This document shows, one piece after another, positions 2,343 to 5,060 of a stretch of 5,060 bases of DNA. The stretch is from contig JARGFV010000152.1 in assembly GCA_029210545.1 (NCBI GenBank), positions 1 through 5,060 on the forward strand, written 5' to 3'. Source of the stretch: a bacterium. Its GTDB lineage: Bacteria; BMS3Abin14. Every line of letters starts with the position of its first letter. Positions within the stretch are counted from its first letter, which is position 1. Both the position numbers and the translations under genes were made by a program. The notes below the pieces were generated by a model. It searched no databases, was not told the origin of the DNA, and was given only the letters and a program-made list of their open reading frames with translations.

Positions 2343-2412
2343 GAATTCAAGTTTAGTAGACAGACGGATCTAATCCACATAGTCTGTAAGCATGTCTACT
2401 CAACTTGAATTC
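2343..2412 (+). repeat. 20-bp inverted repeat spanning the rlmKL start codon
   Basis: The left arm GAATTCAAGTTTAGTAGACA (2343-2362) and right arm TGTCTACTCAACTTGAATTC (2393-2412) are complementary at 19 of 20 positions (mismatch T2354 against C2401). The 30-base loop is 2363-2392. The right arm contains the last two bases of the start codon and codons 2-7 of rlmKL. In RNA this stem would bury the start codon. Inside the region, ACAGAC (2360-2365) and GTCTGT (2382-2387) offer an alternative pairing. Whether it acts as a translational switch depends on where transcription begins. Confidence 0.7.
2346..2374 (+). promoter_or_regulatory. Weak candidate promoter for rlmKL
   Basis: TCTAAT (2369-2374, 5/6 to the -10 consensus) lies 17 bp after TTCAAG (2346-2351, only 3/6 to the -35). 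If used, transcription would begin near 2381, leaving a leader of about 11 bases with no Shine-Dalgarno sequence. The left arm of the inverted repeat would then lie in the promoter rather than in the mRNA. No better pair was found between the IS fragment and the start codon. Confidence 0.2.
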
Positions 2413-4575
2413 TTCGCCTCCTGTCCTCTCGGCATCAACGACCTCCTCGCAAAGGAACTGGAATCGTTCGGGGCGACGGACTTGAAGGAGTCCGCCGCCG
2501 GGGTGTCCTTCAAGGGAACCCTGGAGACGGCCTACCGCGCGTGCCTGTGGTCCCGGGTGGCGAGCCGGGTCCACCTGCACCTGGCCACCTTTCCGGTTAT
2601 TACCGAAGATGATCTCTACAAGGGCGTCAAGGCTGTCGCGTGGGAAGATCACCTCTTTCCCGACCGGACCTTCGCGATCCAGACCAGCGGCAAGACCACC
2701 ACCGTCACCCACACCCATTACGCCTCGCTGAAGGCAAAGGACGCTGTCGTGGACCGTTTCCGGGAACTCACCGGCGAGCGGCCCTCCGTGCAGGTGCGCC
2801 AGCCAGATGCCAGGATCCACATTCACCTGGCCCGTGACAAGGGCACGGTGAGCCTGGACCTTTCCGGTGAGTCCCTCAACAAGCGGGGATACAGGCTCGA
2901 TATGGGAGAAGCTCCCCTCAAGGAGAACCTGGCGGCGGCCATCCTGCTGCGGGCCGGGTGGCCGGCCATCGCTGCCGAAGACGGCCCCTTCGTGGATCCC
3001 ATGTGCGGTTCCGGGACCCTGCTCGTCGAGGCGGCCCTCATGGCCGGCGACGTGGCTCCCGGGATATTTCGAACCGTCTGGGGATTTACCGGCTGGAAGA
3101 AGCACGAGAGCGGCATGTGGACCAACCTCCAGGTGGAGGCGCGCTACCGGATGAAGGAAGGCGGCGGCCGCTTCCCCGTCATGGTGGGTTACGACGCCGA
3201 ACGGAGTGCCATCCGCAAGGCCCTGGCCAACCTGGACCGTGCCGGTTTTGCTGGAAAGGTCCACGTCGAGCGCAGAAGTGTGGATTCCCTGGTTCCTCCC
3301 CCCGCCGCCAGGGGCCGTGAAGGGCTGGTAGCGGTCAACCCCCCCTACGGGGAGCGCCTGGGCGAGGTGCAGGAGCTCAAGGGGCTTTACGGGACCCTGG
3401 GCCGGGAGCTCAGGGCCCGGTTCCCGGGATGGAGGGCGGTCGTGTTCACCGGCAACCCGGAACTCGGCAAGGAGATGGGGATCCGGGCGGTGAAGACCAA
3501 CAACCTGTACAATGGTGACCTCAAGTGCCGCCTGCTGCACTTCGATATCCAGCCTGACCGGTTCGTCGAACCCGGACGCGGTCCCGTTCCTGGCCACGAC
3601 GCCAAAGGGGAGGCGCTCATGTTCGCCAACCGCCTCCGCAAGAACATCAGGACGGTGGGGAAGTGGGCCGAGCGGGAAGGGATCACCTGCTACCGGCTCT
3701 ACGACGCCGACATCCCGGAATTCAATGTCGCCGTGGACATGTACGAGGGTGAGGTTCACCTGCAGGAGTACGAGGCCCCTGACGGGATCGATCCGGATCG
3801 TGCGGCGGCCCGCCTTGCGGCGGCCCGGGATGCTGTCGGGGATGTGCTCGGCGTCTCCCCGGACCGGGTCCACCTCAAGGTCCGCCGCCGCCAGCGGGGC
3901 GTTTCCCAGTACGGGAAGATGGGGCAGGAAGGCAAATTCATCCAGGTCAGGGAGGGTGGTCTGAGTTTCCAGGTTAACCTCACCGATTATATCGACACCG
4001 GTCTGTTTCTCGATCATCGTATTACTCGCGCGATGATCCAGAAAATGGCCTCCGGTGTCGATTTCCTGAACCTGTTCTGCTACACGGGAAGCGCCACGGT
4101 CTACGCCGCGGCAGGCGGCGCGGCCGCCACCACCTCGGTGGACCTTTCCAGCACTTACCTGGACTGGGCCAGGCACAACATGAAACTGAACGGGTTCACG
4201 GGCTCCGGTCACAGGTTCGTCCGGGGCGACGTCCTGAAATGGATCGCTCAGGAGAAAGGCCGTTACGGTCTCATCTTCCTGGACCCTCCCAGCTATTCGC
4301 GTTCCAAGGGGATGGAGGGGGATTTCGATATCCAGAGGGATCACGGGATACTGGTCCGCCAGGCAGCCAGGTTGCTGAGTGCGGGCGGGATCCTTATCTT
4401 CTCCACCAACCGCCGCAAGTTCGAACTGGACACCGATACCCTGAAAGATCTGTATGTGGAAGACATCACCGATCGGACAATCCCCAGGGATTTCAGGAAA
4501 AGAAGGCAGCTGATTCACCGATGTTTTGAGATCAGAACGCAGAACACAGAACGCGGAACACAGAAGAAAGGCTGA
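2392..4575 (+). CDS. rlmKL: Bifunctional 23S rRNA (guanine) methyltransferase RlmKL
   Basis: This 727-residue cytoplasmic enzyme uses S-adenosylmethionine. In E. coli the N-terminal RlmL half makes m2G2445 and the C-terminal RlmK half makes m7G2069 in 23S rRNA during 50S assembly. The THUMP RNA-binding region is at about 45-155. The RlmL domain has the SAM-binding motif DPMCGSGT (202-209) and catalytic NPPYGERLG (316-324). The RlmK half has a PUA-like/EEHEAD-type stretch (about 435-540, with GLFLDHR at 537-543), SAM motif NLFCYTGSATV (560-570) and LDPPSYSRSKG (630-640). All key motifs are intact. Length is slightly over E. coli RlmKL (about 702). ATG 2392 is the only usable start: an in-frame TAG lies at 2380-2382, and the family N-terminus FFASCPLGINDLLA begins at residue 7. 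No Shine-Dalgarno sequence precedes it, and the start lies in an inverted repeat. The last residues (about QNTERGTQKKG) come from a 7-bp repeat and are not family sequence. Confidence 0.96.
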   Translation: MSTQLEFFASCPLGINDLLAKELESFGATDLKESAAGVSFKGTLETAYRACLWSRVASRVHLHLATFPVITEDDLYKGVKAVAWEDHLFPDRTFAIQTSGKTTTVTHTHYASLKAKDAVVDRFRELTGERPSVQVRQPDARIHIHLARDKGTVSLDLSGESLNKRGYRLDMGEAPLKENLAAAILLRAGWPAIAAEDGPFVDPMCGSGTLLVEAALMAGDVAPGIFRTVWGFTGWKKHESGMWTNLQVEARYRMKEGGGRFPVMVGYDAERSAIRKALANLDRAGFAGKVHVERRSVDSLVPPPAARGREGLVAVNPPYGERLGEVQELKGLYGTLGRELRARFPGWRAVVFTGNPELGKEMGIRAVKTNNLYNGDLKCRLLHFDIQPDRFVEPGRGPVPGHDAKGEALMFANRLRKNIRTVGKWAEREGITCYRLYDADIPEFNVAVDMYEGEVHLQEYEAPDGIDPDRAAARLAAARDAVGDVLGVSPDRVHLKVRRRQRGVSQYGKMGQEGKFIQVREGGLSFQVNLTDYIDTGLFLDHRITRAMIQKMASGVDFLNLFCYTGSATVYAAAGGAAATTSVDLSSTYLDWARHNMKLNGFTGSGHRFVRGDVLKWIAQEKGRYGLIFLDPPSYSRSKGMEGDFDIQRDHGILVRQAARLLSAGGILIFSTNRRKFELDTDTLKDLYVEDITDRTIPRDFRKRRQLIHRCFEIRTQNTERGTQKKG
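4536..4563 (+). repeat. 7-bp tandem repeat forming the rlmKL C-terminus
   Basis: Four consecutive heptamers, AACGCAG, AACACAG, AACGCGG and AACACAG, fit AACRCRG and lead into AAGAAAGGCTGA, which holds the stop codon. The array is translated as the hydrophilic tail QNTERGTQ. It resembles the CRCAGAG/CRCAAAG-type intergenic repeats found elsewhere in this window, suggesting that intergenic repeat sequence has moved the original stop codon. Confidence 0.7.
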
Positions 4576-4863: not shown

Positions 4864-4904
4864 GAGGAAACCAACGTTCGTCATTGCTAGCATTGAATAG
4901 TCAA

Positions 4905-5060
4905 CTTCTACATTCTTCCTCCCCCTGCCAATAGCCCCTTTCCTTATTCTCCCTCTCCCCCTCATGTAGGCTCCCTTCCTTATCCTTCCTCCCCCTCGTG
5001 AAGGCCAACTTCCTTATCCTTCCTCCCCCTCGTGAAGGCCAACTTCCTTATCCTTCCTCC
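4905..5060. repeat. 34-bp tandem repeat array, running off the window
   Basis: Two identical 34-bp units (4975-5008 and 5009-5042) and the first 18 bases of a third (5043-5060) lie head to tail. The unit begins CTTCCTTATCCTTCCTCCCC and ends TCGTGAAGGCCAA. Two diverged units precede them (about 4905-4938 and 4939-4973), so units become more alike toward the window end. The + strand is almost pure pyrimidine apart from the GTGAAGG part. Units abut without unique spacers, so this is not a CRISPR array. No open frame is supported here. Confidence 0.75.

Follow-up and report, generated by a model that had tools for sequence, protein, structure and literature searches.

Strong structure at gene starts is normally avoided. 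In the fold-back inhibition of the IS10 and IS50 transposases, the mRNA made from the transposase's own promoter lacks the left arm of an inverted repeat, and read-through transcripts bury the start. Promoters of leaderless mRNAs carry a TANNNT motif about 6-7 nt before the start codon. At the DNA level, template switching reportedly gives rise to hairpins and maintains them, with compensatory changes (PMC8794818), and homogenises the arms of inverted repeats in coding DNA (PMC8604942).

The rlmKL locus described here resembles IS10 and IS50 in that sequence upstream of the gene and the start region form the two arms of an inverted repeat, the right arm lying over the start, and in that the gene's own promoter is predicted to make an mRNA without the left arm. 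It differs from them in that the stem covers the AUG and the following codons instead of a Shine-Dalgarno sequence, in an mRNA predicted to be leaderless, and in that rlmKL is a chromosomal housekeeping gene. Because rlmKL does not encode an insertion-sequence transposase, it stands outside the IS10/IS50 fold-back group. The locus shares with leaderless promoters a -10 element that ends 6 nt before the ATG and is conserved in relatives, together with the lack of a Shine-Dalgarno sequence; unlike those promoters, the putative rlmKL promoter is enclosed by a long conserved inverted repeat, occupying its loop, with the -35 element within one arm. As in the hairpins attributed to template switching (PMC8794818), the arms are reverse-complement copies with multi-base compensatory changes, whereas the joining of a non-coding arm to the first codons, and the recurrence at the same genes in several genera, set the locus apart from them.

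The window, a stretch of 5,060 nt of bacterial DNA, contains an MscS-type channel gene (1039-2091) followed by rlmKL (2392-4575), the product of which has the Pfam domains THUMP, UPF0020 and RlmL_1st. The near-perfect repeat straddling the rlmKL start, pointed out in the initial annotation, was confirmed: 2343-2362 and 2393-2412 pair at 19 of 20 positions, with 30 nt between the arms. When the rlmKL start was joined to 600 random stretches of 100 bases taken from this genome, the best score among the chimeras was 12, compared with 17 for the real repeat. The features of the locus are as follows.

2343-2362, + strand: left arm, non-coding, -49 to -30 from the ATG, kept and covarying in five genomes
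2357-2362, + strand: putative -35 element TAGACA (TGGACA in relatives), within the left arm, from sequence comparison
2363-2379, + strand: spacer of 17 nt, variable in sequence and constant in length
2380-2385, + strand: putative -10 element TAGTCT (TARTCT in all five carriers)
2392, + strand: predicted (inferred) transcription start of a leaderless mRNA, at the A of the ATG
2392-4575, + strand: rlmKL, 23S rRNA m7G2069/m2G2445 methyltransferase (NCBIfam NF008748, E 9e-278)
2393-2412, + strand: right arm, comprising the last two bases of the ATG and rlmKL codons 2-7

Start-straddling inverted repeats this strong are rare (about 1-2% per gene), yet starts are not enriched for them over stops, so that the rlmKL repeat is special through its conservation and not through its mere presence. 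A MITE or another mobile repeat was rejected as an explanation, since no further copies matching the arms were found in the genome; the flanking repeat gave one weak match only.

To follow the repeat among relatives, the genome of the window (G000) was considered within a set of twelve genomes, the other eleven all from its own family, the one family of the phylum covered. The rlmKL starts were compared in nine genomes and the rlmKL arms in five sequences; a contig scan also gave two distant RlmKL relatives, which were left out of the comparison. The same repeat is found at the same position of rlmKL in G000, G002, G003, G008 and G011, which represent three genera, and the RlmKL proteins of the latter four are about 66-69% identical to that of G000. 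It is absent from G001, G004, G007 and G009, four genomes of three more distant genera. Conservation in three genera excludes the recent inverted duplication scar that had been considered as an origin. The loop is exactly 30 nt long in all five carriers, and of the 20 arm pairs 11 are invariant and 5 show double-sided changes, for instance A-U to U-A or U-A to C-G. Paired cells amount to 94.9%, against 89.8% in shuffles, none of which (0 of 500) was as good, and slid registers of the arms reached at most 43% pairing. Thus, the compensatory stem changes for which the initial annotation had proposed to search the relatives are present, and the pairing of the start codon has been maintained long-term. 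Judging from these alignments, what is maintained at the rlmKL start is the pairing, not a particular sequence. The GAATTC noted at both outer edges is indeed there, but relatives have GAACTC/GAGTTC or GAACTC/AAGTTC, and the EcoRI site is therefore incidental. Between the closely related species G003 and G011, homology sets in at the first base of the left arm, with 94% identity from there on; immediately 5' of that base their sequences are unrelated, different genes and repeats having been inserted. In this comparison, the arm's outer edge looks functional.

The maintenance of pairing rather than of sequence argues against a DNA-level operator, in which the arms (-49 to -30 and +2 to +21) would be repressor half-sites bracketing the promoter. 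Middle positions of low information change jointly on both arms, a concert that half-sites do not need. In favour of an operator, the arms flank a promoter of constant geometry at constant spacing, and an autoregulatory operator is plausible at another start-straddling inverted repeat, that of an RpiR-family regulator gene in G002 (L070, 9885-9996), where TTGACA-17-TAATTT overlaps the left arm and the repeat is possibly an operator of this kind. At rlmKL, however, the half-site was found nowhere else in five genomes with up to two mismatches, and the other genes with comparable hairpins, described below, have no common sequence. A fixed DNA operator is disfavoured by both results. In addition, a search with a hairpin model returned only rlmKL below E 0.1. 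We consider the operator improbable.

Conservation does not extend to the weak promoter that had been proposed at 2346-2374; it is seen instead in the promoter-like elements at 2357-2362 and 2380-2385. Read by hand, the sigma-70-like geometry common to the five carriers is TDGACA, 17 nt, TARTCT, 6 nt, ATG. A -10-like hexamer 6 nt before the ATG is present in 8 of the 9 genomes compared, among them genomes without the inverted repeat: TATAAT-6-ATG in G001 and TAATAT-6-ATG in G004, which belong to two different genera, and TAACAG at the six-base distance in G009. G007 has no exact match. The putative rlmKL promoter matches the consensus weakly (5/6 at -35 and 3/6 at -10), and a simple sigma-70 promoter scan reported nothing at rlmKL. 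Among 2049 candidate starts of four genomes, TANNNT accompanied by a -35 element peaked at a six-base gap to the start, with 7 cases versus about 2 at other distances; the count of TANNNT without the -35 requirement gave no leaderless-gene signal, which appeared only once the -35 was required. A bidirectional promoter was rejected by eye, the other strand having no good -10. No Shine-Dalgarno sequence was found at rlmKL, in agreement with the initial annotation. From this arrangement, we predict that the rlmKL mRNA is leaderless, starting at 2392, and that it does not include the left arm.

RNA spanning 2310-2430 folds at -38.7 kcal/mol (z = -5.9), and none of 200 shuffles was equally stable. 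With the left arm present, the predicted probability of the U and G of the AUG being unpaired at 37 °C is 0.00-0.10; with the left arm absent, that of the AUG is 0.89-0.98. Such a very stable hairpin burying the start codon, with conserved pairing, would suit a classical mRNA switch in a normal leader, operated by temperature, a helicase, a protein or feedback, as was originally suggested. A switch of this type is nevertheless improbable. The sole conserved promoter predicts a start at 2392, 3' of the left arm, no conserved upstream promoter was found, and the sequence 5' of -49 is unrelated between species; since the predicted leaderless mRNA lacks the left arm, a simple 5'UTR switch is unlikely. 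The temperature variant is excluded in practice: the G of the AUG is still predicted to be paired at 80 °C with a probability of 0.91-0.97, and an RNA thermometer was rejected because the predicted stem stays shut up to about 80 °C. Comparison of the hairpin with Rfam gave no family above its threshold.

The best explanation that we can offer, although we would rate its chance as somewhat below even, is fold-back inhibition, similar to that of IS10 and IS50, by a hairpin enclosing a leaderless promoter. RNA polymerase would start at the A of the rlmKL ATG, and the gene's own mRNA would be leaderless, with the left arm missing and the AUG open. Transcripts entering from upstream genes would carry both arms and fold into the 20-bp stem, which would bury the AUG and codons 2-7, and the read-through RNA would go untranslated. 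RlmKL would thus be made from its own promoter only, whatever is inserted upstream. As the promoter inside the repeat would keep the hairpin off the normal mRNA, the natural effect of the hairpin would be on read-through transcripts, and read-through into rlmKL is possible because the genes 5' of it are co-directional where readable. Several points speak against fold-back inhibition: in a leaderless gene that lacks a Shine-Dalgarno sequence, translation from an internal AUG might be poor in any case, making the block redundant; it is not obvious what an rRNA methyltransferase would gain from being shielded against read-through; and the logic does not obviously fit the comparable genes described next, which have no evident internal promoter.

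Straddling repeats were surveyed in stretches of five genomes (0.3-0.8 Mb per genome), with starts called mechanically. Start-straddling repeats showed a small excess: with a score of at least 12, they occurred in 18 of 755 cases versus 8 of 1510 chimeras with swapped upstream regions, and for genes with homologues the counts were 3 of 581 versus 1 of 3486 in upstream-swapped controls. A genome-wide start-specific feature was rejected, as repeats are no commoner at starts than at stops. The repeat tends to be shared between orthologues: at a score of at least 11, both members carried one in 2 of 264 orthologue pairs (Fisher p 0.002). The nadD gene has an rlmKL-like architecture in G000, G003, G008 and G011. 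Its right arm consists of codons 2-6 together with the start codon, the arms match at 16-18 pairs, and covariation across the four genomes is strong, with double changes at 6 of 18 pairs. A shorter and weaker version extends to a further genus, being present in G006 and perhaps in G007, and no nadD hairpin was found in G004 or G009. The nadD start hairpins, with the start codon in the stem, are located as follows.

L217, 1454-1542: nadD start hairpin
L218, L219 and L221, 2095-2183 (-): nadD start hairpins

In ispF (G000, G003, G008), uppP (G000, G002, G003) and rlmB (G003, G008), the leader likewise pairs with early codons and the arms covary: the early codons differ synonymously between species, and the leader changes accordingly. 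The loops of the nadD, ispF and uppP hairpins contain a Shine-Dalgarno-like sequence, and the left arm mostly comes directly after lineage-specific repeat-like DNA. As nadD, ispF, uppP and rlmB carry comparable covarying hairpins that enclose their starts, rlmKL is part of a small lineage-specific class. No internal promoter was found in these four genes, where the hairpin would therefore act on every transcript. We tentatively put forward, as credible without being probable, that the hairpins of all five genes are cis-acting elements spread through the lineage, in each of which a short upstream copy, complementary to the gene's own first codons, encloses the start codon; pairing would be selected as codons drift, and the elements would insulate translation from upstream RNA. 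Contrary to the usual avoidance, strong structure has been kept over long evolutionary times at the starts of several housekeeping genes, beside fast-changing intergenic repeats. If selected, it would shield translation from read-through RNA one gene at a time, a kind of insulation that to our knowledge is otherwise known only from transposons.

The strongest rival to selection is quasipalindrome homogenisation, in which template switching at replication keeps a copy of the first codons, made by chance or by fold-back, complementary to them. We regard this as unlikely, though clearly less so than an operator or a leader switch, and hold the same view of its corollary that the left arm is functionless apart from its -35 box. 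Template switching is reported to make and keep such stems (PMC8794818, PMC8604942), the arm changes in G002 are clustered, and the hairpin registers of ispF and uppP vary among species. Also in favour of homogenisation, stop-straddling repeats are about as common as start-straddling ones, and G-U and A-C mismatches are about equal (a hand count over the examples gave about 5 to 4); as mismatches show no G-U bias, RNA-level selection is not proven. On the other hand, all five carriers kept the 14 outermost bases of the left arm although the adjoining non-coding DNA was fully replaced, even between close species, and this retention, as read from the alignments, favours selection. The same genes, moreover, bear the feature in several genera, although no more than about 1-2% of genes have one. 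If the pairing is not selected, the locus would clearly illustrate how template switching imitates RNA covariation in nature, a point that would matter for claims of conserved RNA structure that rest on compensatory changes.

Other repeats were observed in the window and elsewhere. Inverted intergenic copies surround rlmKL (2256-2295/4610-4649, 40 nt, and 2187-2214/4656-4683, 28 nt; 82-83%), so that the repeat-like DNA before the gene and that after it have opposite orientations. The nadD regions are similar, with purine-rich repeats after the stop of the upstream gene and pyrimidine-rich repeats before the start, as if in both regions the orientation of the repeats followed transcription. In G000, a 27-bp inverted repeat (L074, 744-882) joins the leader of a gene for an alpha/beta hydrolase to coding sequence that lies behind the signal peptide; in the G003 orthologue the repeat is a different one, of 13 bp. 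Within the window, positions 2095-2190 resemble the left end of an insertion sequence (GGTCCCCAAAATTTGGACA), followed by a short reading frame, MSKSKCKRY (by eye), and are probably an insertion sequence remnant. Three copies of a 19-nt direct repeat, TTCCGGACCAAACTGACCA, lie at 133-197 with 23-nt spacing, and a CT-rich tandem-like repeat (CTTCCTTATCCTTCCTCCCCCTCGTGAAGGCCAA) occupies 4902-5060, reaching the end of the contig.
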